A stretch of DNA of 64,000 nucleotides, from positions 2,232,001 to 2,296,000 of the forward strand of contig NZ_JAPEOX010000002.1 of NCBI RefSeq assembly GCF_026340675.1. The letters are read 5' to 3'. The first letter of the stretch is position 1. Each line of letters opens with the position of its first letter. Shown piece after piece: positions 34,687 to 60,430 of the stretch. The notes beneath the pieces were generated by a model, which saw only the letters and a program-made list of their open reading frames with translations, was not told the origin of the DNA and made no database searches. This DNA is from Streptomyces sp. NBC_01264. GTDB taxonomy: Bacteria > Actinomycetota > Actinomycetes > Streptomycetales > Streptomycetaceae. The translations under genes were made by a program, and so were the position numbers.

Positions 34687-34704
34687 GAGCGGAGCGGGGA
34701 CCGG

Positions 34705-37281: not shown

Positions 37282-37301
37282 CCTGCCGGTCCCCACCAAC
37301 C

Positions 37302-38080: not shown

Positions 38081-38151
38081 TCAGGCGCCCTTGGCGACCG
38101 GCTCCAGGATCGCCACGCACTCCACGTGGTGCGTCATCGGAATCGAATCCA
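38081..38151 (-). pseudogene. 3' end of a TrmA/RumA-like RNA methyltransferase
   Basis: The minus strand reads ..DSIPMTHHVECVAILEPVAKGA and TGA at 38081, the usual C-terminus of actinobacterial class I SAM-dependent RNA (uracil-5) methyltransferases. Upstream of about codon -23 the frame runs into unrelated DNA, so this is the chromosomal 3' tail left at an integration point. The 5' part is not in the window. Confidence 0.8.
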
Positions 38152-38190
38152 ACGAAAACAGGTTAAAGATAACCACAGGTCATAGCCCTG
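38081..38190. repeat. Left copy of 110-bp direct repeat (attL-like)
   Basis: Aligns without gaps to 60321-60430; I count 81 of 110 identical bases by hand. It covers the methyltransferase 3' tail and about 40 bp beyond it, including AACCACAGGTCA at 38171. The same motif recurs as AACCTGCAGGTCA at 60311 and AACCGCAGGTCA at 60411. Interpreted as the left attachment site of the 22-kb element. Confidence 0.75.
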
Positions 38191-38212
38191 GAGGCTGGAC
38201 TACACGCCATCA

Positions 38213-38267
38213 GCGACGTGCATTATGGGCGCTGCGTGCGTGAACGTGACGCTGATTTGACGCTCAC
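38213..38267 (+). repeat. Left terminal inverted arm
   Basis: Its reverse complement aligns without gaps to 60244-60298 (41 of 55 identical by hand), sharing GAGCGTCAAATC-n-GCGTCA and a GCCCA-n-AA-n-GCAC block. It lies 22 bp inside the attL-like repeat, exactly mirroring the right end. Probably recombinase-binding sites. Confidence 0.7.
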
Positions 38268-38519
38268 GGTGAGCGTGGGAAGAGGGTGAACGGTATCTCG
38301 TTTCGCCGCAAACCACGGTGAGACCGGCAGCCGCGAGGGACAGCACCGACACCAAAGAGGTAGGTGAAGCCGACGAGCTGCCGGCGAGAGCAGCTCCGAC
38401 CCACGGGGCCAAGGCTGTGGCAAGGTGGGCCGGGGCTCCGAGGAGACCGGAGAGCCGATGAGTATTGCGCGGTGCCCCAGCGGTCGGTGACCGTGATGAC
38501 CTGGAGGAGGGTGAGGTTG

Positions 38520-38699
38520 ATGGCGGCCGGGTTCCTGCGCCGCCTCACAGGCGACTGCGCCGAGGTCCGCTCCGCCGGCTCCGTGCCCGGAGGCCAGATC
38601 AACCTCTCCGCCGTCGCCGCCATGGCCGAGCTGGGCATTGACATCTCCGACCAGACCCCGAAGGTCCTCACCCCTGAGGCCGCCCAAGCCTCCGACAAC
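38520..38699 (+). pseudogene. Arsenate reductase (LMW phosphatase fold) fragment
   Basis: Sixty codons reading MAAGFLRRLTGDCAEVRSAG and then GIDISDQTPKVLTPEAAQASDN match the middle of thioredoxin-coupled arsenate reductases. The catalytic Cys loop that should precede MAAGFL is missing, and the match ends at 38699, next to the stop codon of the convergent helicase gene at 38701. Truncated at both ends, so non-functional. Confidence 0.7.
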
Positions 38700-38700
38700 A

Positions 38701-41400
38701 TCAGGCGTACGAGACGTCCTGCCCTGGATGGGCGGTGCGCCAGGCATCCCAGATCTCCTGCCGAAGTCGGCCGCGAGATGGGACGGCCATGCCTTGGTCG
38801 CGGGCCCAGGCCCGGACCTCCGCAATGGTCGGCGCGGGACGTGTGGGTGTCTGGACGGACGTCGGGGTGCTGGGCAAGGGGACTACTTTCGGTGACCGCG
38901 GCAGTAGCTCGGGGAGGGTGGTGATGAAGCCGCGGCGTTCGAGGATGCGTCGCCGCTTGTGGTGCATGCGCTCGAGCTGGGGCACGTCGGCGTCGAGATA
39001 GTCGTGGGCTTCGACGTCGGACTTCCTCGCCTCACCGTTGCGCATGATGCGGCCGACCTGCTGGATGACGCGGCCCTTGAAAGAGATGGGGCTGGTGAGG
39101 AAGAGGGTGTCCAGCCGAGGCTGGTCGAAGCCTTCGCCGACCAGCTTGTCGATCGCCAATAGCACCAGCGGCCTGGCGGTCGTCTCGGCCAAGGCGGCTC
39201 GGACGCGTGCGCGCTCGGCTGATGGGAGGCCACCGTGGAGCAGCAGTGGCTCGATGTCGTGCGGCTGCAGCGCGGCGGCCAGTTGGTGGAGGTGTTCCAC
39301 GCGGTTGGTCAGGGCGAGGCTGCACCGGCCGCGTGCGGCGGCGTCGGCAATGTCCGCGGCGATCTGGGTGTTGCGGTCGGGGTGGTGGGCGAGTTCGGTG
39401 TAGATCGCCTGGAACGAGGCGCCGTCGGTGCCCGGCTCGTCGGTGGTGAACGTGGTGGGGTGCACGACGAGGTACTTGGTGAAGGTGCTGGTGTCTTCGA
39501 TCTCATGGCGGATGGGGCCGCACTGCATCGTGATCACCGGGTCCATCTGGTCCGCCCGGTACGGGGTTGCTGACAGGCCGACCCAGCGTCCGGCCTTCGC
39601 GGTGCGGATCGCGGCTTCGGCTCCGGGCGCTCCGACGGAGTGGCACTCGTCGACGATCACGAGTCCGTAGCCGTCGAGGAGATCCTCGGGGGCGTCCCGG
39701 TGGGACATGGTCTGCAGCATGATCAGATCGACGGCGTGGGTGCGGCGGTCCTTGCCGCCGCCGAGCGAGCCGACCTGGTGGTCGCCGAGGTCGAGGAAGG
39801 TGGCCATGCGCTGCTGCCACTGGTCCAGGAGCTCGGCACGGTTGACGATCACGGCTGTCGGCGTGTGGTGGCGGGCGATCAGCGCGCAGGCCATCACCGT
39901 TTTGCCCGCCCCGGGAGGAGCTACCAGGACACCGGTGGGGTGCGCGGCCATGGCGTCGACGGCCTTCTGTTGGACGCTGGTCAGCTCGCCGGTGAAGTCG
40001 GCGGCGATCGCGGCGTGCTCGGGCTGGTCGCTGGTGATGGTGAGGGTTCCGCCGGCGGCGGCGACGAGCTGGGTGGCCTCGTCGGCCAGGCCCCGCGGCA
40101 GCTTGAGCCAATCCGGGTCCGTGGCGTCGAAGCTGCAGATGAGGCGTGGCGTGTTCCAGGTGGAGAAGCGCTGGTTCTGCTTGCGGTAGAACTCCGGGTT
40201 GTGGAAGGAAGCTGCGTGTTTGAGCGCGGCAAGCAGTTGCGGAGGCAGCCCGGCCGTGGGGATCGACAGCATCGCGGACAGCCGGGCGGCCACGGCGGCG
40301 GGCGCCTTGCCCAGGGACTTCCGACGGGGTCGCGGTCCCAGCTCTTGGGCCGTCGCGGCGGGGCCGGCCTTGACGGGGCCGAGCTTGTCGACGAGCGCCT
40401 CGACCTCGGTGGGTGAGAGCCGCTCGGTGTGTGAGAGGTGAGCGAACTGGTCCGGGTAGGGCTGCCAGGTGTCGGGATCCACGAAGACGGTGGTGGCCGT
40501 GGCGCGGGAGACACCGTGCAGCGGCAGCGCGATCAGGCTGCCGAACTTGAAGCCGCCCTTGGCCTTGATCGGCTGGAGGTCCTGGGCGGGAAAGAGGCGG
40601 TCGTAGCTGGAAAGCGCCATCTGTCCGCGGGCGTCGATGGCCCGCCGCAGCAGCGCCATGCCCAGGGCACGGGCGGTAGTGGCGGCGACGGGCGCGGAGA
40701 AGAACGTCCAGACGTGGGCGCCCTTGCCGGAGCGGGAGATCTCCAGCAGGGCGGGCACGCCAGCCTGCTGGCACGTGTTGGCGTAGGTGGTGGCGTCCCC
40801 GCGCCAGTCGCTGCCGTCCTTGCCGTCGAAGTCACACGCCAGCAGCCGACAGGTATCATCGGCCAGCAGCGGGTACAGACCCACGTGCAGTTCGCTGCGG
40901 CCCTGACGGGACGGATCAAGGTGACCGTAGACGGTCTCGTCGGTCAATGGCCAGAACACCCGGTCAGCGTCGTCCTTGTTCTTGTTGAACGGGTCGTCCT
41001 CGGCCGGGCTCCACCCGGTACGCCCCGTCTTCGCGCTTACCCACCGCCGGGCATAGACGTCGTCACGGCCAGCGAACAGTGCCCGAAACAACGCGATCTT
41101 CGCTTGGCTGCCGGACGAGGCATCCGCATACGGCAGTCCGTTGGCGCCGACCACCGGCGCAACCGGCAACGGTTCCGCAACCGGCGGCAGAACAGCGGGC
41201 TCAGCGGAGGGAGCGCCGCCAAGGGACGCTCGCAGCCGCCCGTTCTCAGCTTGCAGCAGGGCGAGCTCCTCACGGAGCTCGGCGTTCTCCTCCATGGCGA
41301 CGTCGAGACGGATGCGCAGCTCGGCCGGGTCATGGCAGTCAGACCAGTCCTCCACCCTCCTCATGATCCAGAATCCAGGCATCCCACGCAGCCAGAACAC
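38701..41400 (-). CDS. TOTE-type AEP primase / SF2 helicase with Lsr2-like tail
   Basis: 899 residues. Order: coiled coil (about 25-60); archaeo-eukaryotic primase-like domain (about 95-330) with [11 protein letters not shown] (metal Asp-x-Asp near 190) and [13 protein letters not shown] (near 225); SF2 helicase with Walker [10 protein letters not shown] (near 498), DECH in [14 protein letters not shown] (near 583), SATPYR and QQVGRIMR (near 780); C-terminal [29 protein letters not shown] (about 861-890), which resembles the AT-hook-like DNA-binding domain of Lsr2. The primase-helicase pairing is that described for TOTE conflict systems. ATG 41400 is the longest start; ATG 41364 is equally possible. 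Function in defence or element replication is inferred. Confidence 0.85.
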
Positions 41401-41706: not shown

Positions 41707-42191
41707 TCAGAAAGGCGTTTCTGGAGCCGGGTCGCTCGGGTCGTTCCCAGCGGGTACGGGGGGTCGGACGGGGCTGGCGGCGGCCCACGGGTCGTCTGGC
41801 GCGGTCTCCCGTGTGGGCGGTACGGGGCGGGTGGTGCGGGTGATGGCAACGGTCGCGAAGGCCATGGACGCCCCGACATCGTCGACGTCCATCACCATGC
41901 GGGAGCGTTTCTCCCCCTCCGGGGTCTCCCACCGGTCGGTCCGGAGGCGCCCCGCCACGACCACCCGGGCCCCTGAAACAGGGACCCGGCGAGGTTCTCC
42001 GCAAGCTGCCGCCAGGCACTGCAGTCCAAAAACGTCGGCTCCCCGTCGCGCCAGGTGCTCGTTTCACGGTCGAAGCTGCGCGGTGTGGAGGCGACGGTGA
42101 ACCTGGCAACGGGGATCCCAGCCTGGGTGAACCGCAGCTCCGGGTCGTCAACAAGGTTCCCAATCACCGTCAGGGGTGTGTCGTTAGGCAT
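41707..42191 (-). pseudogene. ssb: Single-stranded DNA-binding protein, frameshifted
   Basis: From ATG 42191 the frame reads an OB-fold SSB ([53 protein letters not shown]). Near 41965, in the G-run of TTTCAGGGGCCCGGG, the homologous sequence shifts frame and continues as [40 protein letters not shown] to a stop at 41707. One extra G would restore a normal protein. Either a real one-base deletion, a sequencing error or slippage. The tail ends DPAPETPF rather than the acidic DDDIPF. Confidence 0.78.
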
Positions 42192-42296
42192 CTCCACAGC
42201 CTTGCATGGACCTATGACAACCCGTCCACGCGGTCTTCCCGTACCGCCTGGGCCTCTGCCCCCACGCAGAGCGGCCGCGCCGGTATCGTGCCCGGG

Positions 42297-42605
42297 ATGG
42301 GGACATGGAGCTGGGCCCAGCTGGATGGGCTGGTCGAGGAGGCCACCGTCGACGCCTACGGCGAGGACGAGGAAGTGACAGGTCTGTTCACGATGGTCGA
42401 GGAGCATCTGGTCATGCCGTTTGCCACGACGGTTCTGGGCGTGGAGGTGAGTGTCGTCGGTGTCGATCTCACCGCAAGCGGGATCGTGGGGATCTGCACC
42501 CGTGGCAAGCAGCGGCAGGCCGTCGGACTTCTCGATCTGCCCCTGCCCACTCCCGCACCGGACGGCGCGCAATGGATCGAGGCCTACCGCCACTGGGCGG
42601 GCTGA
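42297..42605 (+). CDS. CcbP-like calcium-binding protein
   Basis: 102 residues from ATG 42297. [45 protein letters not shown] resembles the CcbP calcium-binding family (acidic VDAYxExE helix followed by an LxxPF strand), frequent in actinobacteria on genomic islands. Role on the element is unknown. A GTG at 42288 would add three residues. It is followed after 95 bp by the HTH gene on the same strand. Confidence 0.65.
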
Positions 42606-42700
42606 CACCCTCCCAGGGCGTCCCCGGGCACGGTACCAGACGCCGCCGGGGTCCACGGCCCGCAGCGAAGGGGTTCGGGCTGGTCGGGCACAATGGCGCG

Positions 42701-43432
42701 GTGCGCGAAGACGATGACGTAGAGCTGCTGGACCGGGTAAGGGCACTGCGGGCGGCTGGCAGCGGCCCCAAGCAGGTGGCGAAGGCGCTGGGGCTTCGCC
42801 CCGGGCAGGCGGCCGTGATGGTGCGGCGGGCCGCCGCGGCCGACCAGGCGGTGGAACCGGGAGAACGGCCGGTGGTGGGCTGCTGGGTGAGCCCGGGCTG
42901 GAGCGACGGGCTGGACCTGTCGGCCTGCCCTCCGGCCTGGGTGGGACAGGACTCCTCCGCGAGTGAGGAGGCGATCGGGGCGGGGTTCGCGCAGCTGCTG
43001 GTGGCACGCCGGGAGCGGGCAAGCCGGGTGACGGTGACCGGTGCACTGGTGGACGTGTACTGCCTGGGTGTCAAGAGCGTGGTCGAGCCCCACACCATGG
43101 GGGCGGGGTCGCTGGAGGCACACCGACGCTCCTACTACAGCGCGTTCGCAGAGCCCTCCCTTCCGATTGGTATCGATCAGGCGAGGGCCATCGTCTACGG
43201 GGCCGTCGCCTACGCCCGCGAGCTCGGATTCGAGCCGGCCCCCGGCTTCACTCAAGCCGCCGCCGTGCTGGGGGAACCCGTCGGCGCACTCCCGCAGATC
43301 GGCTTCGGGAACCAGGGAATGCCCCTCTATATCAACGGTCCCCGCGACGACGCCCGCACGGTGCTGGCCACCTTGGAGCGCACCCGCGGCACGGGCAACT
43401 ACCACTACATCTTCGCCTCGGGGCCGATGTGA
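42701..43432 (+). CDS. Hypothetical protein with N-terminal HTH
   Basis: About 243 residues. I start at GTG 42701 ([43 protein letters not shown]), whose [20 protein letters not shown] is a helix-turn-helix-like segment; the open frame upstream is out of frame with sense sequence. The body includes [28 protein letters not shown] and [31 protein letters not shown] know similar actinobacterial hypothetical proteins but no function. It overlaps the next gene by GTGA, so the two are coupled. Confidence 0.75.
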
Positions 43433-44751
43433 CCCACCTGCACGACACCGAGACCTCGCAGACCCGCCTCACCGAACACAGCGCCCAGGCCGATCTGCGG
43501 ACCCTGCTGCAACTGTGCGCCGCTGGCCGGGTGAAGTGCAGTGCCACAACGCTGCGCCCGTCCGCCGCGACCGTCGCCCAGGTGGCCGAGGTACTGGACG
43601 CAGGCGACTTCTACGCCGGTGAGCCGATAGCCGCCTTCGCCTGGCCCCTGCTCCTACAGGCCGGCGGCCTGGCCCAACTGGCCGCAGGCAAGCTCGCTCT
43701 GACCAAGCGTGGCCAACAGGCACTCACTCAACCCGCACACAAGGTGCTGGCCGGGCTGTGGCAGCGCTGGCTTTCCAGCACGGTCCTGGACGAGTTCTCC
43801 CGCGTCGAAGCTATCAAAGGCCAGCGCTCCGCGAACGTGCTCAGCGCGCTCAAACCGCGCCGAGGCCACGTCGGCGCCGCGCTGGCTGCCCTGGCCCCCG
43901 ACCAGTGGACCACCGTCGACCAGCTCTTCACTGCCATGCGCAACGCGGGGCACAACCCCTCGGTCGCACGCTCCGAACGTGCCCTGTGGAAGCTTTACCT
44001 GGAAGACCCCGAGTACGGCAGTCTCGGCTACGACGGCCACCACCCCTGGACACTGCTCCAGGGCCGCTACACCATGGCCGTGCTGTTCGAGTACGCCGCA
44101 CCCCTGGGACTGATCGACGTCGAGTACACGGACCCAGCCGGGGCACGCGACGACCACCAGCACAACTGGGGTGGCGACTGGCTGGAGCGGATCAGCCGCT
44201 ACGACGGCCTTCGCGCGATCCGCCTCACCCCTCTCGGCGCCTACGCCACCGGGCAGGCCTCCGCATACCTCCCCGGGCCCGCCCCTGAATCGACCACCGC
44301 CGGGAGCGCCACCGGGCTGAAAATCCTCCCCAACCACGACCTCGTCGCCCTCGACGGCCTCCCCCCTGCCCAAGCCCTACTCCTGGACGCCTTCGCCACC
44401 CGCACCGGCGACCGGACCTGGACCCTGAGCCCCGCCTCCCTCCTGGCAGCCGTACACGCCGGACGCAACCTCTCCGAACTGCGCACCTACCTCAACCACG
44501 CGGACACCGCCCTGCCGGACACCGTCACCACGCTCCTCACGGACGCCGAGCGGCGCGTCGGCCAGGTCCGCGATCTCGGCCCCGTTCACCTGATCGAATG
44601 CGCGGACGCAGCCACCTGCGCGCTGCTGGCCAGCGACAGGCGCATCCGCGCGCTCGCCACCCGCCTCGGCGACCGCCACCTCGGCGTCCATGCCGACAAG
44701 CTCGACCGCTTCCGCAAAGCCACCCTTACCCTCGGGCACCCCATCATCTGA
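43429..44751 (+). CDS. XPB/Ssl2-wing-like (Helicase_C_3) protein without helicase motor
   Basis: 440 residues, GTG 43429 overlapping the upstream stop. The C-terminal third, KILPNHDLVALDGLPPAQALLLDAF..SPASLLAAVHAGRNLSELRTYLNHADTALPDTVTTLL, has the periodicity of the helicase-associated domain found beside XPB/Ssl2-like helicases in actinobacteria. There is no Walker motif anywhere, so it is not itself a helicase. The N-terminal part is helical and unassigned. Coupling to the HTH gene suggests the two proteins act together. Confidence 0.65.
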   Translation: MTHLHDTETSQTRLTEHSAQADLRTLLQLCAAGRVKCSATTLRPSAATVAQVAEVLDAGDFYAGEPIAAFAWPLLLQAGGLAQLAAGKLALTKRGQQALTQPAHKVLAGLWQRWLSSTVLDEFSRVEAIKGQRSANVLSALKPRRGHVGAALAALAPDQWTTVDQLFTAMRNAGHNPSVARSERALWKLYLEDPEYGSLGYDGHHPWTLLQGRYTMAVLFEYAAPLGLIDVEYTDPAGARDDHQHNWGGDWLERISRYDGLRAIRLTPLGAYATGQASAYLPGPAPESTTAGSATGLKILPNHDLVALDGLPPAQALLLDAFATRTGDRTWTLSPASLLAAVHAGRNLSELRTYLNHADTALPDTVTTLLTDAERRVGQVRDLGPVHLIECADAATCALLASDRRIRALATRLGDRHLGVHADKLDRFRKATLTLGHPII

Positions 44752-45367: not shown

Positions 45368-47611
45368 TTATCCGATGGTCAGCCGGTGGTCGAGTGCGGT
45401 GTGGCGGCGGCCGGCGCTGATGGTGCGGACTGCCTGGCCCAGGGCCTTGCGGGATCCGACGAGCACCACGAGTTTTTTGGCTCTGGTGACGGCGGTGTAG
45501 AGGAGGTTGCGCTGGAGCATGTTCCAGGCCGAGGTGGTCACGGGGATGACCACGGCCGGGTACTCGCTTCCTTGCGATCGGTGGATGGTGACGGCGTAGG
45601 CGTGTGCGAGTTCGTCCAGTTCGTCGAAGTCGTAGCTGATCTCTTCGTCCTCGTCTGTCATGACGGTGAGTTTTTGCTCTTCGGTGCTGAGGGCGGTGAC
45701 CAGGCCGACGGTGCCGTTGAAGACGCCGTTCTCTCCTTTCTCGTAGTTGTTGCGGATCTGTGTGACCTTGTCGCCCACCCGGAACGTCCTCCCGCCGAAA
45801 CGGCGTTCTGGCAGCCCTTCCCGGGCCGGTGTGACGGCGGCCTGGAGGAGGGTGTTGAGGTTGCCCGCGCCGGCCGGGCCCCGGTGCATGGGGGCCAGCA
45901 CCTGGATGTCGCGGCGCGGATCAAGGCCGAACTTCCGGGGTATGCGCCGGGCCGCGACGTCGACGGTGAGACTGGCAGCGGTCTCGGTGTCGTCCTCCAC
46001 GAAGAGGAAGAAGTCGGGCAGGCCATCGGTCAGGGGCGGCAGGCCCTGGTTGATCCGGTGGGCGTTGGTCACCACTCCGGACTGCTGGGCCTGCCGGAAG
46101 ATTTTCGTCAGCCGTACCGAGGGGACGGGACTGTCGGCGGCGAGCATGTCGCGCAGTACCTCGCCGGCGCCGACCGAAGGCAGTTGGTCGACGTCCCCGA
46201 CGAACAGCAGGTGGGCGCCGGGAGCTACCGCCTTGGCGAGCTTGTTGGCCAGGATCAAATCCAGCATCGATGCCTCGTCCACGACCACCAGGTCCGCTTC
46301 CAGCGGCCGGTCGCGGTCGTAGGCGGCGTCGCCGCCGGGTCTCAGCTCCAGCAGGCGGTGCACGGTCGAGGCCGGTGCCCCGGTGAGTTCCGACAGACGC
46401 TTGGCCGCCCGGCCTGTCGGAGCGGCGAGGACCACCTTCGCCTTCTTGGCCAGGGCGAGGGTCACGATCGACTTCACCGTGAACGACTTCCCGCACCCGG
46501 GGCCGCCTGTCAGGACCGCGACTTTCTCGGTCAGCGCCAGCTTCACCGCCTCCTGCTGCTCCAGCGCCAGCTCCGCACCCGTCCGCGCAGCAAGCCACGC
46601 GAGCGCTTTCGCCCAGTCGACCGGTTTCGGGCTGCGGCTGCCGAAGGCGGGCATCTTGTCGGCCTCCGTCCGCAGAAGCCTGAGCAGCTGGTTCGCCAGC
46701 GAGACCTCAGCCCGGTGGAAGGGCACCAGGTACACGGCCGTGACCGGTTCGCCATCCGGGCCGGGAACGCTCTCGCGGACCACGCCGTCCTCGGTGACGA
46801 GCTCGGCCAGGCAGTCGATGACCAGCCCGGCATCGACCTGCAGGAGTTTCACGCCGTCGGAGATCAGGCGCTCTTCGGGAAGGAAGCAGTTGCCCTGGTC
46901 ACTGCTCTGCGAGAGCGCGTATTGCAGGCCCGCCTTGACGCGCTCAGGACTGTCGTGCGGGATCCCCACAGCCTGGGCGATCTTGTCAGCGGTCAGAAAG
47001 CCGATGCCCCACACGTCGCTGGCCAGCCGGTAGGGCTCGTTCTTGACCACGCCGATCGAACTGTCGCCGTACTTTTTGAAGATCCGCACGGCCAGTGAGG
47101 TGGAGACGCCGACACCCTGCAGGAAGACCATCACCTCCTTGATGGACTTCTGCTCCTCCCACGCCGCCGTGATCAACGCGGTCCGCTTGGGACCCAGGCC
47201 CGGCACCTCGATCAGCCGCCCCGGCTCCTCCTCAATGACATCGAGGCTCTCGAGACCGAAGTGCTCCACGATCCGCTCGGCGAAACGAGGACCGATCCCC
47301 TTGATCAACCCGGAACCCAGGTAACGCCGGATGCCCTGGATCGTGGCCGGCAGCACCGTGGTGTAGTTCTCCACCGTGAACTGCTTGCCATACTGCGGAT
47401 GCGACCCCCACCGCCCATACAACCGCAACGACTCACCAGGCTGCGCACCGAGCAGCGCCCCGACCACCGTCAGCAGATCGTTCGCACCACGCCCGGTATC
47501 GACCCGAGCCACCGTGTAACCGGTCTCCTCGTTCGCGAAGGTAATGCGCTCCAGCACCCCCTCCACCTCCGCAAGCTGCCGCGGTACCGCCTGCGGTCCA
47601 CTCAAACCCAT
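45368..47611 (-). CDS. recD2: RecD2-type DNA helicase
   Basis: 747 residues from ATG 47611, behind GGGAGGGGAG. N-terminal OB-like segment (EGVLERITFANEETGYTVARV), helix-hairpin-helix pair (LIKGIGPRFAERIVEHFGL and LIEVPGLGPKRTALI), SF1B motor with Walker A LTGGPGCGKSFTVKSIV, Walker B VVVDEASMLD, and the C-terminal SH3/UvrD-like part ending in AYAVTIHRSQGSEYPAVVIPV. This is a 5'-3' helicase active on ssDNA junctions, not part of RecBCD. On the island it may assist replication or recombination of the element. Confidence 0.93.
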   Translation of the reverse strand: MGLSGPQAVPRQLAEVEGVLERITFANEETGYTVARVDTGRGANDLLTVVGALLGAQPGESLRLYGRWGSHPQYGKQFTVENYTTVLPATIQGIRRYLGSGLIKGIGPRFAERIVEHFGLESLDVIEEEPGRLIEVPGLGPKRTALITAAWEEQKSIKEVMVFLQGVGVSTSLAVRIFKKYGDSSIGVVKNEPYRLASDVWGIGFLTADKIAQAVGIPHDSPERVKAGLQYALSQSSDQGNCFLPEERLISDGVKLLQVDAGLVIDCLAELVTEDGVVRESVPGPDGEPVTAVYLVPFHRAEVSLANQLLRLLRTEADKMPAFGSRSPKPVDWAKALAWLAARTGAELALEQQEAVKLALTEKVAVLTGGPGCGKSFTVKSIVTLALAKKAKVVLAAPTGRAAKRLSELTGAPASTVHRLLELRPGGDAAYDRDRPLEADLVVVDEASMLDLILANKLAKAVAPGAHLLFVGDVDQLPSVGAGEVLRDMLAADSPVPSVRLTKIFRQAQQSGVVTNAHRINQGLPPLTDGLPDFFLFVEDDTETAASLTVDVAARRIPRKFGLDPRRDIQVLAPMHRGPAGAGNLNTLLQAAVTPAREGLPERRFGGRTFRVGDKVTQIRNNYEKGENGVFNGTVGLVTALSTEEQKLTVMTDEDEEISYDFDELDELAHAYAVTIHRSQGSEYPAVVIPVTTSAWNMLQRNLLYTAVTRAKKLVVLVGSRKALGQAVRTISAGRRHTALDHRLTIG

Positions 47612-47739
47612 CCTCGTACTCCCCTCCCGTGCCCGCGGCACCCCTGGACCTACGCTACCCACCCCCTCACCCAGCTCTGCCGCAAGGCGTACCCCACACG
47701 TCATCGCCCCGGTGCCGGCCAACACGTGCGGCGCACACT

Positions 47740-48127: not shown

Positions 48128-48146
48128 ACCACCGTCTGCCCTGCCA

Positions 48147-49382
48147 TCAGGCCAGGTCGGACAGCAGTGCGTCAAGGACGGTCTCTTCCTCGATGCGGAC
48201 GCCCAGTTCCTCAAGCGCGTCGGGTAGACGCGGATCCCAGGGGGCTTCGGCCGGTCGTCCGGTGAGGGGTGGGCCGCCCCGATGGGGGAGGGCCGCGGCA
48301 CGGTAGTCAGCAGTCGTATAGCGCCAGGGCAGCCATGGGACGCGGCGCAGCAGCGCGGAGGCGATGCGCAAGCCTCCCCAGTCAAAGTCGCCGTGGTAGT
48401 ACAACGTGGTTCCGCCTTGGTGCAGCTGCCGCAAGAGAGTGACGGCGGCTACCGAGGGCTGTCCCTGGAGGCAGATCAACGGGGCGGAGTCGGCGCCGTG
48501 GACATCGGCCGCCGCCGCTATCACGGTCGGGTTCTCGCAGATCCGGATCGATGGGGCGGAGATGCCGGGAGGGTTGCGGATGAGCTGCCGCAGGGTCAGG
48601 ACGTACGGTTCGCCCGCGTCGGCCGCCCAGTCCAGGGCGGGAGTGCCCCGCAAGTTCAGGGTGAGGACGGTCGAGGACAGCTCGTCTCGCAGCAACCCGG
48701 CCGACGCCCAGGCCTCCCGGCGCCATTCGGCGCCCGCGCCATCGGGGAAACCGGTCAGTGCTCGTACTCCTGCCAGGGTGACGGTGGCCAGCGGGGTGTC
48801 GTCGTCGAGAGCGTGGGCAGCGCCCAGGAATCGGGCTGCGAAGGCGGGAAGCGAGACGGGCGGGTCGACGGGGAGGCCGCGCAGGACGGTGGCGACCTGA
48901 CCGAGGAGGGCATGTGCGGCGTCGGGTGTGCCCACGAGACGTCGCAACAGACCATCACCGCGCATACGACCGGTCCACGAGTCGAGAGCCGGGATCTCGT
49001 CCGCGAGGGCGATCAGCGGGAGGTACGCCTCCTCCCAGGCCCTCGCATCGGCTTCCTTCGCTCTGTCGAGTGAAACGACCGGCCCTGTGAGGGCCGTGAC
49101 AGCGGAGGCGAGCCCGTTCGGGCTCACGCCGGAGCGGCGCAGCAAGGCATCCACGTCTTCGAGCCGAACGGTCAGGGATCGGCCGCTGCCCGGAGAGCGG
49201 CCAAGCAGCCGTTCGACTGCTGTCCGCTGCCCCTCGGTCGGGCCGCTGAGGGACACCGGGCCCGTGAGCGGCTGCTCGCGCTCCAGGCGCCGGCGCACCC
49301 GGTCTACCAGCCAGCTCGTACTGGGGTCGCCCAGCAGGCGCCGCAAGCGGGCCCTGTCGGCGGATACGCCATCGGACATCAC
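48147..49382 (-). CDS. jetD: Wadjet type II subunit JetD (TIGR02679-like nuclease)
   Basis: 411 residues, GTG 49382 overlapping the jetC stop as GTGA. The C-terminus has a Toprim-like DUF2399 region with TLYYHGDFDWGGLRIASALL, whose Asp cluster is the metal site, and a PLICLQGQPSVAAVTLL strand. In Wadjet systems JetD cuts circular plasmid DNA after the JetABC SMC complex has extruded it. Fourth gene of the operon. No damage seen. Confidence 0.9.
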   Translation of the reverse strand: MMSDGVSADRARLRRLLGDPSTSWLVDRVRRRLEREQPLTGPVSLSGPTEGQRTAVERLLGRSPGSGRSLTVRLEDVDALLRRSGVSPNGLASAVTALTGPVVSLDRAKEADARAWEEAYLPLIALADEIPALDSWTGRMRGDGLLRRLVGTPDAAHALLGQVATVLRGLPVDPPVSLPAFAARFLGAAHALDDDTPLATVTLAGVRALTGFPDGAGAEWRREAWASAGLLRDELSSTVLTLNLRGTPALDWAADAGEPYVLTLRQLIRNPPGISAPSIRICENPTVIAAAADVHGADSAPLICLQGQPSVAAVTLLRQLHQGGTTLYYHGDFDWGGLRIASALLRRVPWLPWRYTTADYRAAALPHRGGPPLTGRPAEAPWDPRLPDALEELGVRIEEETVLDALLSDLA

Positions 49383-52300: not shown

Positions 52301-53509
52301 CAGCCGGCCGGCGGCCTGCAGCCGGTTGTCGGCGGCCTGCAGCCGCCCGCGGGCCCGGGTGTGCAGCGCCGCGGCCTGGTCTCGGTCGTCCCGGGCACGG
52401 TCCAGGGCCTGTTCCGCACGTTCCACCGCCTTGGCCGCTTGCTCCAGCTCGCGGGCGCTGCGCATCTCGGGTCCCTCGCGCAAGGCCGCGTCCTGGGCTC
52501 GCAGGCGGGCCTCGGCCTCCTCCAGGACCGAGATCCGTTCCTCGGCTGCCGCCCTGTCCTCCTGGGCACGTGTCTGTTGTACCTGTGCCTCGGCGAGGTC
52601 CCGCTGCAGGTGCTCGTAGCGGGAGTGCTCGACGCGCGGGAGACGCGCGCGCCGCCGGGTGGCGATGCGTGCGTAGCGCCGGTAGTGGTCCAGGAAGGCG
52701 GTGGCAGCCCGCTCGGCGGCGGAGGCCGCGGCCAATTCCTCCTTCTCCTCGTCCAGGGATCGGAAGGCCTCGGCCACGTCGGCGATGACCGCCTGGTCCA
52801 TGGGTGGCAGCGCCTCCGTGAGGGCCCGGGACAGAGCTGCCTCGTTGGGGCGCTTGGACAGCTGCGGCTGGCGCAGCTGGATGAGCAGATCCACCAGTGC
52901 GCCGTAGCGCTGCTCGCCCAGTCCGAAGAGTGCCTCGTCGACGGCCCTGCGGTAGGTCTTCGCCTGGTCGTAGACCAGGCCGTACCCGGCGACGGCTTCG
53001 GCGAGCCGGTCCCGGGACAGCGCTGTGCCGGTGGCGTCGAGCAGGCTGAGTGACGTCTCGGCTGCGGCAGCGGCCTCCTGGCCGTGGTCGACCCGCTGAC
53101 TGGTGAGTGCGTACCAATGACGTGCGATGCCCCGCCCGCTGACCGCCTTGAGGCCGCAGAGCAGCGTACGGAAGTGCTGCTCGCCGCTCGTCTCGTCCCG
53201 CCTGCCGAACTCGATCCACGTGTAGCCGAGCCGCTCGGAGTGCGGATGCTCCCCGCCGAGGAGGAGGTTCCACTCCATCCGCTTGCCCGGGTCGCCGTCG
53301 GGTTCGACTCGGCGTGAGCTGAGGTCACCGTCGAGCAGGAAGGGCAGGGTCAGGGCGAGCACCTTGGACTTGCCGGTGCCGTTGTTGCCGCGCAGGAGCA
53401 GCCGCCCGTCCCGGAAGTGGAACTCCTCGACGTCGTAGTGGAAGAGGTCGACGAGGCCGATGCGCATCGGCTGCCATCGGGAGCGCAGCGGGGTGGGGAG
53501 GCGGGTCAC
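49379..53509 (-). CDS. jetC: Wadjet type II SMC-like ATPase JetC (TIGR02680)
   Basis: 1376 residues. N-terminal half ATPase with Walker A LLRGNNGTGKSKVLALTLPF, long Glu/Arg/Ala coiled-coil arms (about 230-1180) around a central hinge-like region, then the C-terminal half with signature SGGERVLAVSVPLFAAASS and Walker B LVTLDEAFAGVDDDSRAK. It is the motor that extrudes DNA loops. GTG 53509 overlaps the jetB stop. Size and motif order match TIGR02680. Confidence 0.93.
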   Translation of the reverse strand: MTRLPTPLRSRWQPMRIGLVDLFHYDVEEFHFRDGRLLLRGNNGTGKSKVLALTLPFLLDGDLSSRRVEPDGDPGKRMEWNLLLGGEHPHSERLGYTWIEFGRRDETSGEQHFRTLLCGLKAVSGRGIARHWYALTSQRVDHGQEAAAAAETSLSLLDATGTALSRDRLAEAVAGYGLVYDQAKTYRRAVDEALFGLGEQRYGALVDLLIQLRQPQLSKRPNEAALSRALTEALPPMDQAVIADVAEAFRSLDEEKEELAAASAAERAATAFLDHYRRYARIATRRRARLPRVEHSRYEHLQRDLAEAQVQQTRAQEDRAAAEERISVLEEAEARLRAQDAALREGPEMRSARELEQAAKAVERAEQALDRARDDRDQAAALHTRARGRLQAADNRLQAAGRLAESTIAQAREAAAAARIDLPGDDGPAESELRRMTEEETERAERALAHAEDLAERAERAAEGRRRASIRLDEANADLDHSTAAHGLTEETAVRAGQALLDDVREHARACTELDYPDLTGLLDELQEWTGHLDGPYPARTRAVRAHGETSALLADQAAEAARRAVALAARTARVREELTALEAGGRRGPQPPHTRTPGLRDQLPGAPLWRLVDFREELTGQERAGLEAALEASGLLDAWVLPDGSALTAEGHDVLLSPTTGPVTGTSLGALLRPAVDAGDTRAATVGEATVARLLDAIGAGGDGGADTWTGSDGSFRVGTLTGRWAKPAAQYVGEGAREAARRSRIAVLRGELDLLQQESGEVGAQSENVAARRRTIDAELSRVPDESPLARAHAQVAASADGVRRTRVRCEERAADVLEAAERAEAAATELTGTAAELGLPHDRAGLAEVRRAHGSLAVALAALWPILRERGEAARQAEEEGAEAVQAQERTAELALRTEEAGREAAAADERHTTLRSTVGAAVAELERRLTETAEALSVCAADQRLTRKQHAEADREASRAEGRIEQLEKGLAGASEARAEAIAGLQRFTATGLISVAVPELPVPAADDGPWAATPAIVLARAIESGLSAVDDSDAAWERVQRRLSEELKTLQDTLSRHGHTASARMVEDGMVVDIVYQGRERAVPELADALGIEVGELTRILSSHEREILETHLITEVAGTLQELIGAAERQVRDMNAELEHRPTSTGMKLRLVWRASRRAPSGLLPARERLRQSADAWTAEDRTAVGEFLQMQIARQQTEDTSGSWLEHLTVALDYRTWHEFGVERHQHGRWVPATGPASGGERVLAVSVPLFAAASSHYASAASPHAPRLVTLDEAFAGVDDDSRAKCLGLLHAFDLDVVMTSEREWACYPQVPGVAIAQLSRIDEVAAVLVTRWEWDGTRRQRREDPVRPPDVTEGAQADVAGSEPLST

Positions 53510-54744
53510 GGCGTGCGGGCCTTTCGCTGCGCGGGCATACGTGCGGTACCTGGTTCGAGTACGACGGTCTCGCCGACCGCGTACCGGGCGAGGGCCGGCC
53601 GTGGGGCCACCCCGTGGGCCGTACGGGAGACCAGCCCGAGGGCGGCGAGTCGGGCGACGGCCTGTTCCACGAGTTCGGCCTCCATGCCGGGCTCCCGTGC
53701 GGACTTGGCCCAGAATCCGCCGTGCTCGGCGGCGAGTTCCCGGACCCTGACCGCCAGCTGTTCGCCGGCAACGGGACCGCCGGCCGCGGCCAGGTGCTCG
53801 GCGAGCAGCAAGGTGATGTGGCCGTGGGTGCCCTGTTCGGGCATGCGGACGTCGGTGAGGTCGTCGTCGGGGTCGACCATCGCGATGCCTTCGGCGCGCA
53901 CCTCGGGGACCAGTCCGGTCAGCTCGGTGATGCGGGTGGTGAGGAAGCCCCTCTGGCGGGTGAGGTAGCCGAGCTCGGAGTCGGTCAGCTCGTCGTAGTA
54001 CAACACGGGGTCGTCCAGCAGCCTGCGGGTCAGTGAGCGCCGCATCGCGCGGAAGCGCAGTTCGTCGCTGTCCAGAGCGGTCTCGGCCGCGAGTTGGGCC
54101 AGCCGGTCACCGAGCGCCTGCGTGTGCACGGTGGAGGGGCCGCGGCGCGCGGCGAGCAGCCCGGCCAGCACTCGGCGTTCCACGTCGTACAGGACGTCGC
54201 CGGCTCCGCTGACGTACGCGTCCTCGTCGCCGGCCACGCGCCGCAGCACTCCGAGGCCGAGCAGGAGCCGTACGACAGCGGCGAGGTCGAGGCGCTCGTC
54301 CCGGCGGTCCAGGGTGAACTGGATGCCCGCACGAGCGAGGTGGGGGTCGGCGGCGTCGATCACCACCTGGTCGGCGAGGCGGCCGAGTGCGATCTGCGCC
54401 TCGCCGCGTTCGAGGGCGGCAAGGGCGAGGCAGAGCAGGACGTAGCGGCGCCGTGTGAACGGGGCGGCCGCGCGGCTCGCCTCGCGCGCGGGGTGTGTCG
54501 GGTCGCTGAGAGCTCCCGGTATCTTCCGCAGGCGGGCGGCCTCGGCATCCGTCTGGAGCGACCACCCGGTATTGCGGTCGAACCACTCACGCAGTTCGGA
54601 GGCATGTCGCCGGACGAGACGGAACTCGTCGGCGTACCGGCCGTGGGCCAGCAGCAGAGGCTGCTTGAGCAGGGCACGAGCAGCCTTGCGGAGATCGGCT
54701 GCGTGCTGGCCGTCGAGCACCTCGGCGAGCGGGGTCCCGTTCAT
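53506..54744 (-). CDS. jetB: Wadjet type II subunit JetB (TIGR02678)
   Basis: 412 residues, ATG 54744 overlapping the jetA stop as ATGA. Rich in winged-helix-like segments with no enzymatic motif, as expected for a kite-like subunit of an SMC complex; RRYVLLCLALAALERGEAQIALGRLAD and LLDDPVLYYDELTDSELGYLTRQRGFLTTRITELTGL are typical stretches. Assigned by length, operon position and sequence character. Confidence 0.88.
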   Translation of the reverse strand: MNGTPLAEVLDGQHAADLRKAARALLKQPLLLAHGRYADEFRLVRRHASELREWFDRNTGWSLQTDAEAARLRKIPGALSDPTHPAREASRAAAPFTRRRYVLLCLALAALERGEAQIALGRLADQVVIDAADPHLARAGIQFTLDRRDERLDLAAVVRLLLGLGVLRRVAGDEDAYVSGAGDVLYDVERRVLAGLLAARRGPSTVHTQALGDRLAQLAAETALDSDELRFRAMRRSLTRRLLDDPVLYYDELTDSELGYLTRQRGFLTTRITELTGLVPEVRAEGIAMVDPDDDLTDVRMPEQGTHGHITLLLAEHLAAAGGPVAGEQLAVRVRELAAEHGGFWAKSAREPGMEAELVEQAVARLAALGLVSRTAHGVAPRPALARYAVGETVVLEPGTARMPAQRKARTP

Positions 54745-56303
54745 CGATCGCCGACTCCGTTCGTCAGGTCGATGATCTCGATGAGATGGTCGGGACCCCG
54801 GAAGATGCCTTCGGGTGTCCGGATCTCCGCGGTTCCGCCATCGGCGACAGCGGTGAGTCGGATCTCCATGGAGCCGTCGTTGCTGGTGGCCGCGGTGTGC
54901 CGCATACCGGGCCGCCAGGTGGCCAGCGCGTCGCCTAGGAGTTGGAGGAAGAGCCCGAAGGAGGAGGGATCGAGTTCACCGACCCCGGACAGCCGGGTGA
55001 TCCCGTCCGTGACGAGCCGGGCGCGCGCCGCCGCGGTCTCGGCGGCCTGCTTGGCGGCTATCTCGGCGAGTCCGCGGCGTCGCTCCTCCCGGTCCTCGAC
55101 CTTGCGGGGTTTGCCGCGCCGCTCGTAGCTGCCGGTGCGGCGCAGCTGGGGGCTGATCCGCAGCGGCTCGGCCTCGGCCCACGGGGTGGCCGCGGGCACA
55201 GGCCGTGCCGCACGGGCGGCCAGCGTTTCGGCGTCTACGGTGAGGTGCCGGGCGGGATACAGCCCGAAGGCGGTGCGCCACAGCCGGTGGCGGGCGTCGT
55301 CGTCGGGTGCCTCGGCGAACCAGCGGGCCAGGGTACGGAAGTCGGCGGACCGGTCGGAGCGTCCGGCTCTGCGTTCGTTCAGCGACCGCACGACGGCCAG
55401 GAGCTGGGGAATCGCACCGAGGGCCCTGCCGCGCAGCAGCCTGGCCTGCGACTCGCGTCCGTCCCTGCTGATGAACCATGCCGCGAGGCCGGCCCAGCGC
55501 CCCTCCCACCGTTCATACGCCTCCTTCTCCGCGTGCTCGACCTCTTCCGGCGAGGCATCGGCCGCCTCGCGGACGGCGGCAGCCCGCAGCAGCGGCCCGA
55601 TACTCCCGTCGTCTTCCAGCTCCAGGATCAGCCGCGCGATGCGCCCCCCAAGGGTGATCAGATCCTGGATGAACCGCTCCAGGTACTGGATGAGCCGGTC
55701 TTTGTAGGCGAGGAACACCTCCTCTTCCACATCATGGAGGTCGATGGTTCGCTGCAGGGACCCCATGAAGGCGCGGGCGTTGTCGGCGAGCGCGGCGAAC
55801 CGGCTCGCGAGCGCGTCAAGCGCCAGATGCGTTTTGGCCTGATCCGGCTGTTCTTCAGCTGCCAAGACAAGCAGGGCCCGCAACTGGGTCACGATGTCGT
55901 GCAGGGCGACGGCCTGCAGCGCACCGCGCCGCCCGAGCGCCTCGTCGTAAACGCCCAACGCCTCCTCGGCCGCTTCCCCGGCCCGGGTGAGCTGGTAGAT
56001 GTACCGCTTCCGGTAGAAGTCTTCGACAGCGGTGACCCGGGCAGTGTCGGGATCGGCCCGCAGATTCCCCCAGCCGACGAGGCTGTCCAGTGCCTTGACC
56101 ACGGCTTCCAGCTCGGCGGGCCGCGCGTCGGCCGGCAGCGCGGCGTGCACGTCCTCCGGACGCAGATGGACGGCGAACCGCTCCTTGGCCACGACGAAGG
56201 CCCGCATCACCTGCCGGTAGAGACCTGTGTTCTGCACGGTGAGGTGGGCGAAGGGGTTGTAGCTGTCCGGTCGAGGCTCCGGGGCAGTGGTGGTGACGCT
56301 CAT
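54741..56303 (-). CDS. jetA: Wadjet type II subunit JetA (TIGR02677)
   Basis: About 520 residues from ATG 56303 (MSVTTTAPEPRP); the frame is open to 56492 but the extra sequence is not family-like. NPFAHLTVQNTGLYRQVMRAFVVAKERFAVHLRPEDVHAAL followed by VEDFYRKRYIYQLTRAGEAAE is the TIGR02677 opening. It acts as the kleisin-like subunit bridging the JetC heads. First gene of the four-gene operon; its promoter should lie in 56304-56512. Confidence 0.9.
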   Translation of the reverse strand: MSVTTTAPEPRPDSYNPFAHLTVQNTGLYRQVMRAFVVAKERFAVHLRPEDVHAALPADARPAELEAVVKALDSLVGWGNLRADPDTARVTAVEDFYRKRYIYQLTRAGEAAEEALGVYDEALGRRGALQAVALHDIVTQLRALLVLAAEEQPDQAKTHLALDALASRFAALADNARAFMGSLQRTIDLHDVEEEVFLAYKDRLIQYLERFIQDLITLGGRIARLILELEDDGSIGPLLRAAAVREAADASPEEVEHAEKEAYERWEGRWAGLAAWFISRDGRESQARLLRGRALGAIPQLLAVVRSLNERRAGRSDRSADFRTLARWFAEAPDDDARHRLWRTAFGLYPARHLTVDAETLAARAARPVPAATPWAEAEPLRISPQLRRTGSYERRGKPRKVEDREERRRGLAEIAAKQAAETAAARARLVTDGITRLSGVGELDPSSFGLFLQLLGDALATWRPGMRHTAATSNDGSMEIRLTAVADGGTAEIRTPEGIFRGPDHLIEIIDLTNGVGDR

Positions 56304-56512
56304 CGCGGCCATTGTCCCCCAGCAGACGGAGCGGACGACAGGGACGAAAGCACTTGGCTGATTCGCAACGCGGTGTGTGCCCTCCCGGACCCCCGCCCGG
56401 ACCGTACACGGGACGTCGTCGATGCCCTTGGCCAGCTGCGCGCGGTCGCCATGTGACCGTACGCGCCCACTCGTGCACAGAACCGCGGCCACTTTGTCCC
56501 AGCTGAGCCGCC

Positions 56513-58471: not shown

Positions 58472-58606
58472 CCACCGCAAGCGGCCATGCCTACATCTGT
58501 CCGAGTCTTCGCCGCCGTCAGCCCACCCCTCAGTCTCTTCCGACCGCGCCAGGCGGAGCGCGGCTGAGAGCATGTCCGTGAGGTATTCGTGCGGTGGGGA
58601 GTTCAA

Positions 58607-60055
58607 GTGCCACAACAGGTCAACGAACGGCAGCAACAGGTACTGCAATGGGTCGGCCGAGGCTGCCCTGACGGCGTATGGGAAGGAACTGGATACAAAC
58701 TCAGCTGCCAGGCCCTACACAGCCGTGGACTTGTCAGAGTCTCCAAGCGGCAAGGCAAGTGGTCCGTCGTGCTCACCGAGGCCGGCCAGCAGTATCTGGA
58801 GCACGGGTCTCAACCGCTGGAACAGCCTCGTGGCGAGAACACCGCTCCCCCGCCACGGGCGAAAATCCAGTCATCCGACATGGCCAAGATCGAGAATTCC
58901 GGCACCAAGGCAGCCCTGCCCCTGCCGGTGCAGCGGACCAGGCCACTTCCGCGCAAGAAGGCCAAGACCGTTACAGAGCAGCTCCTGGAAGAGCTCGCGG
59001 AGGCCGGCGGCCGTATCGTCAAACGCGAAGCCAGTGGTCGGGAGACCGAGAAATGGCCAATCCGCGTTGCCGCGGCACGCCGGTCCGGAAAGATCCCCGC
59101 GACGAAGGAACTGCACGCAGGCTGGTGCAACGACGGATATGAAATCCGGCTCGTCGACACCCCCGCCTGGCGCTTTGCCGTGCTGCCGCCCGTCCCCGTA
59201 CCGGCACGGCTCACTACGCCGCATCCGGTGGTCAAAGCGCTGCAGGCGCACCCCCAGCCCATGGCCCTGACCAAAGCTGTACAGGGCAGAGCCTTCCGCC
59301 TCATCCACGCATTGCTCACCGCAACGCAGAAGCTGGGGTACGCCAGCGCATTCGGCACGGCCGACAGTGCCCCCGCACCACACCGCCGGCGAAACGGCCC
59401 GCCCCACTTCACCATCACGGCCCAAGGTCAGCGATGCGATTTCCTCATCCTGCAGGAACAGGACCGCACCGAACACATCCCCACGAAGAAGGAACTCTCG
59501 GACGCCGAGAAGCACTCCTGGGTCAGGATTCCCCGGTACGACACCTCCCCCGCCGAACGTCTACGAATCTGTGTCGGCGGCGGGCTGCGACACAGGGCTG
59601 GCGAGTGGGCCGATATGGCCGCCTGCCCGCTTGAGGACCAGCTCGCCGAGATCGTGCAGGAAGTGGGGCTTCGGGGCGAGGCCGCCGAGCGCAAACGACT
59701 GGCCGATCTGGAGGCAGCGCGGGAAAAGCGGCTGCAGTGGGAGGCCGCAATGCGACGGGCAAAGATCGACTTCGCCGAGGCGGCCCGAGTCCAGCATCTC
59801 GAAGCGCAGGAACGGGCATGGCGCCGCGCAACGGGTCTGGCCGAGTACATCGGCGCCCTCCGTATCCACGCACAGACCTTGGCGACCGGTCCGGAGAGAG
59901 ACGGAGCCGAGGCATGGATCGCCTGGGCTGCCGATCATGTGGAGCGCCTAAACCCGCTCAACGGGACGCTCCGCCTACCCGAGATTCCTGAACCGCGCGC
60001 CAGCGACCTACAGCCGTTCCTGCACGGGTGGAACCCCTACGGTCCCGGCTACTAG
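58607..60055 (+). CDS. Hypothetical coiled-coil protein near the right end
   Basis: About 482 residues from GTG 58607, 6 bases after GGGGAG; GTG 58589 is possible. The N-terminus resembles a winged helix (ALHSRGLVRVSKRQGKWSVVLTEAGQQYLEHG). The middle contains HIPTKKELSDAEKHSWVRIPRYD, then a long charged helix (ERKRLADLEAAREKRLQWEAAMRRAKIDFAEAARVQHLEAQERAW) and a conserved-looking tail PEPRASDLQPFLHGWNPYGPGY. I have seen this kind of protein as a widespread actinobacterial hypothetical family; no function is known to me. It is the last gene before the right arm. Confidence 0.7.
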   Translation: MPQQVNERQQQVLQWVGRGCPDGVWEGTGYKLSCQALHSRGLVRVSKRQGKWSVVLTEAGQQYLEHGSQPLEQPRGENTAPPPRAKIQSSDMAKIENSGTKAALPLPVQRTRPLPRKKAKTVTEQLLEELAEAGGRIVKREASGRETEKWPIRVAAARRSGKIPATKELHAGWCNDGYEIRLVDTPAWRFAVLPPVPVPARLTTPHPVVKALQAHPQPMALTKAVQGRAFRLIHALLTATQKLGYASAFGTADSAPAPHRRRNGPPHFTITAQGQRCDFLILQEQDRTEHIPTKKELSDAEKHSWVRIPRYDTSPAERLRICVGGGLRHRAGEWADMAACPLEDQLAEIVQEVGLRGEAAERKRLADLEAAREKRLQWEAAMRRAKIDFAEAARVQHLEAQERAWRRATGLAEYIGALRIHAQTLATGPERDGAEAWIAWAADHVERLNPLNGTLRLPEIPEPRASDLQPFLHGWNPYGPGY

Positions 60056-60186
60056 GCCCCGCCGATTGTCACAGAGCGTATTCATGGAGAGAAGGCAGAG
60101 CGCGGGCCTCACACCGACCGGCTCTGTTGCCCACTACCGAAAAGGGTGCCGCCCAGAGCAGGATCGCGATCTGCTCCGAGGAGTCG

Positions 60187-60221
60187 CCGTCGATGCCTGA
60201 CGACTCGTCAGGCATCGACGG
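60187..60221. repeat. 35-bp perfect palindrome near the right end
   Basis: Arms ccgtcgatgcctgacga and tcgtcaggcatcgacgg (17 bp each, no mismatch) around a single C. Too short a loop for an ordinary terminator at full length, though a shorter stem is possible. Only 22 bp from the right inverted arm. Confidence 0.85.
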
Positions 60222-60243
60222 CGGCGTGCGTCAAACGTGCGTC

Positions 60244-60298
60244 ACGAGCGTCAAATCTGCGTCAAGATATCGCCCGTAACGCCCACAACGCACATAGC
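60244..60298 (-). repeat. Right terminal inverted arm
   Basis: Counterpart of 38213-38267 in opposite orientation (41 of 55 identical). Just outside it are further GCGTCAAA-type repeats (gtgcgtcaaacgtgcgtcacg, 60226-60246), suggesting an array of recombinase sites. Confidence 0.7.
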
Positions 60299-60320
60299 GC
60301 ACATCGGCCTAACCTGCAGG

Positions 60321-60397
60321 TCAGAGGCCCTTTCCAACGGGCTCAAGGATCGCGACACACTCGACATGCTGGGTCATCGAAATAAGGTCTATCAAAA
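60321..60397 (-). pseudogene. Second methyltransferase 3' tail
   Basis: The minus strand reads DLISMTQHVECVAILEPVGKGL and TGA at 60321, a diverged copy of the tail at 38081. No 5' gene part is joined to it on the right, so it is a captured attachment-site copy rather than a gene. Confidence 0.75.
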
Positions 60398-60430
60398 ACA
60401 TGTGAAAGGAAACCGCAGGTCAGCGGCCTG
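60321..60430. repeat. Right copy of 110-bp direct repeat (attR / next attL)
   Basis: Gap-free match to 38081-38190 in the same orientation. AACCTGCAGGTCA precedes it at 60311 and AACCGCAGGTCA lies inside at 60411. Downstream, cagagtgggcgct at 60471 also resembles cattatgggcgct at 38221, so this copy looks like the left end of another related element. Confidence 0.75.

Follow-up and report, generated by a model that had tools for sequence, protein, structure and literature searches.

Tandem accretion of elements at the 3' end of a gene is already known from the island PAISt at bacA, from cis-mobilizable elements (CIMEs) and from the staphylococcal cassette chromosome (SCC), and these precedents cover the general principle. 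PAISt of Streptomyces turgidiscabies is described as bounded by copies of the bacA 3' end, with an internal third copy that divides it into two modules. Excision proceeds by module via these sites, and only one of the modules contains intSt, which encodes a tyrosine recombinase (PMC4057263). Here we describe two elements, A and B, stacked at one attachment site in Streptomyces sp. NBC_01264: the 3' end of the RNA methyltransferase gene rumA, which is whole. The window under study is a stretch of 64,000 nt (positions 2232001-2296000 of contig NZ_JAPEOX010000002.1, hereafter C2) from a genome of 10.67 Mb (G000). In the literature searched, which held few subscription journals and no bioRxiv preprints, we came across no description of Streptomyces elements at the rumA 3' end. 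An actinobacterial defence survey (PMC10482375), in the parts available, notes an enrichment of Wadjet and names no rumA site, and the word methyltransferase is absent from its main text; the available part of PMC12924846, on a Streptomyces phage site, deals with a radical SAM gene.

A first-pass annotation of the window had proposed direct repeats at the borders of A and inverted arms just inside them. Both are real. The border repeats (Table 1) are identical at 81 of 110 positions without gaps. The next-best score of the left 110-mer in the whole window, on both strands, is 52; for 300 random 110-mers from the window the best other match averaged 56.5 with a maximum of 80, and none reached 81. 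The 55-bp arms match in inverted orientation at 41 positions, each lying, by our measurement, 20 bp inward of its border. Among 500 random pairs of 250-bp stretches the inverted match had a mean of 30.1 and a maximum of 36, and 41 was found in none.

The supposition that a second element is stacked behind the first, with the rest of the methyltransferase gene further right, also proved correct. With window numbering carried on past 64,000 along C2 (extended coordinates; 77069 is C2:2309069), a third repeat copy appears at C2:2309069-2309128 (extended 77069), 16.7 kb to the right of the A-B junction, where it is the 3' end of a gene that lies intact on the minus strand. Its 444-aa open reading frame (ORF), ending in MTHHVECVAILEPVAKSS, is rumA/RlmD (TIGR00479, 203.6 bits versus a cut-off of 183.55). 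Over ~60 bp the left copy is 90% and the junction copy 78% identical to this rumA copy. Element B spans 60321 to extended 77069, with the whole of rumA right behind it. The site therefore reads as follows: chromosome with a YceI gene, attachment site, A (22.2 kb), attachment site, B (16.7 kb), and an attachment site that is the end of intact rumA. Copies of the rumA 3' end thus stand at both borders, and the target gene is undamaged. This order fits serial integration, each element supplying a new rumA 3' end. Read by eye, the outermost left copy might be the old host tail, but such an age order is suggestive only, because this copy is ~90% identical overall to unoccupied tails (~89-90% for those of genomes G012 and G019) and to the present rumA tail alike.

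A blastn search of the own genome with the left repeat (E <= 1e-3) returned the repeat itself, the rumA copy, a weak match (79%, E 1e-3) and, on contig C1, a relic that is 93% identical over 58 bp; it missed the junction copy at 60321, which limits its sensitivity. A 29-bp right-end motif, allowed up to 2 mismatches, occurs three times in this genome: once each at the end of A, the end of B and the C1 relic. Because blastn and the motif scan give so few places, the repeats are not genome-wide, a possibility that the first-pass annotation had raised against itself. The C1 place is a solo right end (L006:8638-8760; G000:C1:1150638-1150760) in which the motif is followed by 58 bp of rumA tail (93%) with no rumA behind. 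It adjoins transposase-like ORFs, as judged by eye, and a partial tyrosine-integrase frame lies ~2.5 kb away. This place is either a relic or a secondary insertion.

The proposed family of elements using the methyltransferase 3' end was borne out across the genus. With up to 2 mismatches the right-end motif is present in 82 of 199 Streptomyces genomes, our own included, and the reversed-pattern control gave 0. Full-length rumA follows the motif in 22 of the 30 loci read, and a rumA tail of 35-71 bp in the other 8, an arrangement like that of a tandem junction. For 21 relatives picked by the motif next to rumA (10 + 11; 17.7-40 kb read in each), a left tail copy lies within the stretch in 11, one of them weak (G031).

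The elements differ in the design of their ends: class I has mirror-image arms and class II same-direction arms, and both share the attachment core and the right arm. Class I, with both ends seen, comprises 12 elements (G000A and G000B, G004, G011, G029, G076, G090-1, G090-2, G098-1, G098-2, G182 and G147) and class II seven (G007, G033, G035, G104, G128, G132 and a second place in G031). Integrase matches brought in G104, G128, G132 and the second G031 place; matches to P0002, a protein encoded near the right end of A, brought in G076, G090, G098 and G182; the remaining classed elements were picked by the motif at rumA. G147 joined later, and the comparisons of arm scores and gene sharing cover the other 11 class I and the 7 class II elements. 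Genes of the relatives were called by a simple script based on GC by codon position, which small genes can escape. In class I the inverted arm scores are 28-66 and the direct ones 21-30, with inverted above direct in 11 of 11. Class II shows the opposite (inverted 18-27, direct 36-50; direct higher in 7 of 7), a comparison that is partly circular, since classes were assigned by the left-end motif. In 10 of the 11 class I elements none of 200 shuffles reaches the inverted score (shuffles were run for inverted scores only). Four further motif-picked elements (G023, G031, G108 and G211) were left unclassed, and that of G108 holds a different tyrosine integrase.

The link between end class and integrase is free of this circularity. 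None of the 12 class I elements contains a PF00589 match (E <= 1e-3). PF00239, searched in 8 of 9 class I genomes, and PF07508, searched in 4 of 9, gave none inside elements either, and A and B match none of these three families. In class II, 6 of 7 elements encode a tyrosine integrase of ~362 aa with a small adjoining gene, and 5 of 7 a second, shorter protein. Since 4 of the 7 had been fetched as integrase-positive, the fairer figure is that of the motif-picked sample, with PF00589 inside 2 of 3 class II versus 0 of 4 class I elements. The G007 element illustrates the arrangement, with a PF00589 integrase, an adjoining HTH_17 gene (PF12728) and a second PF00589 protein; across class II this second protein measures ~209-232 aa (L074:5563-6261 in G007). 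The class II integrase (E <= 1e-40) is present in 26 of 199 genomes, apparently the same draw as in the motif scan. One class II element with its integrase (L131, G031:C1:828001-848000) lies ~1 Mb from rumA, with no rumA by blastn in the stretch read, and is possibly a second attachment site.

Behind the conserved ends the cargo changes. In G011 the class I element encodes PglX, BrxC, PglZ, BrxD and BrxHI, and relatives of this bacteriophage exclusion/phage growth limitation (BREX/Pgl) cluster occur in the class II element of G035. The elements of G004, G029 and G182 hold type I restriction-modification (RM) with an IetS-like gene, pPIWI-RE genes and polyketide synthases, respectively. A relaxase-domain protein encoded by the class II element of G033 hints at conjugative mobilisation; for A and B no relaxase was seen in the ORFs given to Pfam, and no search aimed at relaxase families was made.

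Relatives of P0002 (E <= 1e-20) occur in 38 of 199 genomes. No other gene family is common to the two classes in so many elements (14 of 18); second comes an AbiE pair, with 4 of 18. Class I holds one in 9 of 11 elements, and in 8 of these 9 it is nearer to P0002 than to the class II relative; that of B is equally far from both. In A the gene ends 204 bp short of the right-end motif, which the B right end and the C1 relic also have. P0002 is no exclusive hallmark of rumA elements, a role that we rejected given that 52 of 80 loci lack the motif, though rumA does adjoin three of these 52 (L176, L177 and L185). A group of relatives outside rumA (L199-L248, e.g. L201:7413-7583) has a common downstream sequence in many species. 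The element proteins were further compared with phage and plasmid records. P0002 has no match at E <= 1e-5 among 50,697 phage records, the class II integrase matches 1555 of them, all below 60% identity, and a prophage or phage satellite was rejected on these grounds. A plasmid origin was rejected as well: among 72,556 plasmid records P0002 has 9 matches, none of which reaches 60% identity, and the integrase has 313, of which a single one is in the 60-80% band.

What we observe, then, is a series of stacked attachment sites, an intact rumA, conserved ends shared around changing cargo, a tyrosine integrase in class II, and no recombinase detected in class I. We think it probable, with some reserve, that A and B are integrative elements of the rumA 3' end and that a class II-type integrase mobilises class I elements, in trans or, after accretion, in cis. 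Each element would bring its own copy of approximately the last 60 bp of rumA, and integration would push the older 3' end outwards while the intact gene stays at the inner edge. The class II-type tyrosine integrase would act on the shared sites, both to integrate and to excise class I elements. The HTH_17 gene beside the class II integrase may supply an Xis-like partner, and the P0002-family protein may be a DNA-binding accessory. That the class II integrase acts on class I ends, that the elements are mobile and that P0002 plays a part are inferences. Five class II elements hold a P0002 relative beside a tyrosine integrase; therefore an accessory role fits. A more specific version, in which class I is a stable integrase-less island lineage whose near-palindromic attachment site consists of two inverted right arms and which rides the class II integrase with P0002 as a common accessory, we put forward only tentatively.

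Several observations weigh against integrase sharing. At E <= 1e-40 the own genome gave no class II integrase, and all eight remaining class I genomes fall outside the 26 of 199 with a match; thus no helper was seen beside a class I element. PF07508 was searched in 4 of 9 class I genomes and PF00239 in 8 of 9, and class I may have an unrecognised recombinase. The inverted score of the class I element G090-2 (28) is within its shuffles (maximum 30). Of 80 P0002 relatives, 52 are without the motif. Finally, 10 of the 21 motif-picked genomes show no left tail within the 17.7-40 kb read; therefore many islands would be decayed or larger.

Decay is indeed the substance of the main rival, which holds A and B to be CIMEs, integrative elements whose class II-type integrase was deleted after integrating. 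Such an outcome matches the CIME concept as set out in the available parts of PMC5704250 and PMC7563491, and signs of decay are present: the P0002 relative of B is truncated and reversed, several class I P0002 genes have stops or frame breaks, and the class II element of G035 is without an integrase. The AbiE genes common to B and to class II left ends point the same way. However, deletion products should retain class II left ends, and the inverted arm score exceeds the direct one throughout class I. A P0002 relative is kept in most class I elements, usually in a form of their own, and the right-end motif is nearly exact despite rumA DNA mostly 80-86% identical between species. We regard decay as a rather unlikely account of the two elements. 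It is far less probable still that P0002, or another unrecognised protein of class I, is a new kind of recombinase. The breadth of the P0002 family would agree with this, as would the position of its members, which adjoin the arms in 28 of 80 loci. Against it, the predicted P0002 model consists of winged-helix, beta and long-helix parts and has no match in the PDB by Foldseek at E <= 0.001. Moreover, class II keeps P0002 relatives alongside a tyrosine integrase, and two class I elements (G004 and G090-1) lack them. Tyrosine and serine recombinase folds do not occur among the matches listed for P0002, those of one search covering the N-terminal winged helix, which says little either way. Imperfect repeats by themselves could also come from a segmental duplication that took in the rumA 3' end, or from faulty assembly. 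We give this next to no credence, as the duplicated part breaks off at the same point near the rumA tail in many genomes, where the adjacent arms are conserved and the cargo differs. Overall, we suggest that class I elements such as A and B borrow a class II-type integrase. On the tentative version with a stable class I lineage, if true, Streptomyces would have a genus-wide hitch-hiker system at rumA that spreads defence and biosynthetic cargo. The two end classes make the movement of integrase-less islands a testable question.

Comparison with relatives, which the first-pass annotation had recommended, showed the site empty or otherwise occupied. G012, whose RumA is 96% identical, has no right-end motif. 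In the sister genome G098 rumA DNA is 95% identical, and window 29718-37348 (7.6 kb) is collinear at 94-95%. Beyond this flank come 12 kb without similarity and then the same attachment tail and left arm (102 bp, 82%), the site being occupied by two other elements of 52 and 28.5 kb. Comparison of 17 left or unoccupied rumA flanks by blastn gave only short similarities at the attachment tail, G004-G029 and G004-G182. A formyltransferase stretch is located beside rumA in G000, 12 kb from the left tail in G098 and ~5 Mb from rumA in G012. Hence we rejected the left flank as the ancestral neighbour of rumA. The part of this flank adjoining A (32424-37281), collinear in G098, encodes a FecCD-type permease, an L-lysine/L-ornithine monooxygenase and the formyltransferase, which suggests a siderophore cluster. 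A tRNA target was rejected too: the single ARAGORN call in the window, a doubtful one at 23975, does not fall within the element.

By its predicted products, A is a defence cargo island (Wadjet type II, AEP-TOTE primase-helicase, RecD2) that would comprise anti-plasmid and anti-phage genes. JetA, JetB, JetC and JetD of Wadjet type II lie side by side, and the AEP-TOTE primase domain is accompanied by a helicase. Element B has an AbiE-like pair, relatives of which lie near the left end of the class II elements G007, G128 and G132. It further encodes a GAF-ANTAR protein, an MpaB/Lcp-type oxygenase, two oxidoreductases, a chalcone/stilbene-synthase-type (type III polyketide) synthase and an iron-containing redox enzyme of the Haem_oxygenas_2 family. 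Elsewhere in the window, 16865-28504 contains very long overlapping ORFs on both strands (3188 and 3662 aa), probably a modular synthase on one strand.

Table 1. Features of elements A and B and of the left flank (window coordinates)
Feature	Position	Strand	Evidence
YceI-like gene, flank just outside left border	37396-38046	+	PF04264 E 1.7e-49
Left attachment site of A, 60-bp copy of rumA 3' tail	38081-38140		90% to intact rumA tail over 60 bp
Left inverted arm of A	38210-38264		41/55 to reverse complement of 60247-60301
AEP-TOTE primase-helicase with Lsr2-type DNA-binding end, 899 aa	38701-41400	-	PF22548 E 3.2e-70, ResIII, Lsr2_DNA-bd
ORF with single-stranded DNA-binding (SSB) domain near C-terminal end (called ORF start)	41892-43046	-	PF00436 E 2.9e-14, residues 292-359
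440-aa protein with Helicase_C_3	43429-44751	+	PF13625 E 1.1e-10
RecD2-type helicase	45368-47725	-	PF14490, PF23139, AAA_19/AAA_30
JetD, Wadjet type II	48147-49382	-	PADLOC JetD2 E 4.5e-143; TIGR02679 above cut-off
JetC, SMC-like ATPase, Wadjet type II	49379-53509	-	PADLOC JetC2 E 0; TIGR02680 above cut-off
JetB, Wadjet type II	53506-54744	-	PADLOC JetB2 E 5e-149; TIGR02678 above cut-off
JetA, Wadjet type II	54741-56492	-	PADLOC JetA2 E 1e-208; TIGR02677 above cut-off
P0002, 488 aa, no known family, near right end of A	58589-60055	+	predicted N-terminal MarR-like winged helix
Right inverted arm of A	60247-60301		contains genus-wide right-end motif, 60259-60287
Junction site (right attachment site of A and left of B)	60321-60430		81/110 to 38081-38190; type I left arm next
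Left inverted arm of B	60461-60525		inverted local score 35; 200 shuffles mean 18.5, maximum 31
AbiE-like pair near left end of B	60879-61993	+	60879-61217 partner without Pfam match; 61217-61993 AbiEii, PF08843 E 1.9e-11

In Streptomyces, cargo enters repeatedly at the rumA 3' end (Wadjet, BREX/Pgl, type I RM, pPIWI-RE and polyketide genes), and the 29-bp motif gives a direct handle for collecting new defence and biosynthetic clusters. Several described systems resemble these elements in part. The available parts of the sources cited below show the following likenesses and differences. SCCmec and the Enterococcus cassette chromosome likewise sit at an RNA methyltransferase gene (rlmH), with variable cargo in its 3' region and both direct and imperfect inverted repeats, but encode the large serine recombinases CcrAB (PMC6222049); none was found in A or B, and class II has a tyrosine integrase. 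We rejected an SCC cassette on the lack of PF07508 and PF00239 matches in A and B and on the target, RumA/RlmD (TIGR00479) rather than rlmH. Streptococcal integrative and mobilizable elements (IMEs) and integrative and conjugative elements (ICEs) also target rumA (PMC5704250, PMC7563491). However, they use serine integrases and the IME site is internal to the gene, whereas here the site is the 3' end and rumA is intact. Actinomycete ICEs (AICEs) are likewise integrative elements of actinomycetes, mostly with tyrosine integrases, but those of tyrosine type sit overwhelmingly at tRNA genes (PMC3218068). An AICE was rejected, as A and B have no integrase match and the target is rumA, not a tRNA gene. 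Hitcher elements, such as clusters of attC sites lacking integrases (CALINs) and miniature inverted-repeat transposable elements (MITEs), lack an own recombinase and rely on one encoded elsewhere, as we propose for class I; the available account of them (PMC11389934) is without integrase-less islands at a protein-gene attachment site.

Two further likenesses are CIMEs and PAISt. As in ICE-CIME accretion (PMC5704250, PMC7563491), cargo bounded by attachment sites and devoid of recombination genes stands in tandem at the 3' end of a conserved gene, and A and B do retain attachment sites with no recombination genes detected. CIMEs are described there as decayed ICEs or IMEs, whereas class I has its own left-end design and a recurring right-end gene. 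On descent from an ICE or IME the signs are divided: the left ends differ from those of class II, yet B shares class II AbiE genes. With PAISt the array has in common a Streptomyces island bounded by copies of a protein-gene 3' end, with a third copy inside. PAISt differs in its bacA site, 8-bp palindrome, modules of 105 and 569 kb and virulence cargo (PMC4057263); the present array lies at rumA, yielded no integrase and combines defence with metabolic cargo.

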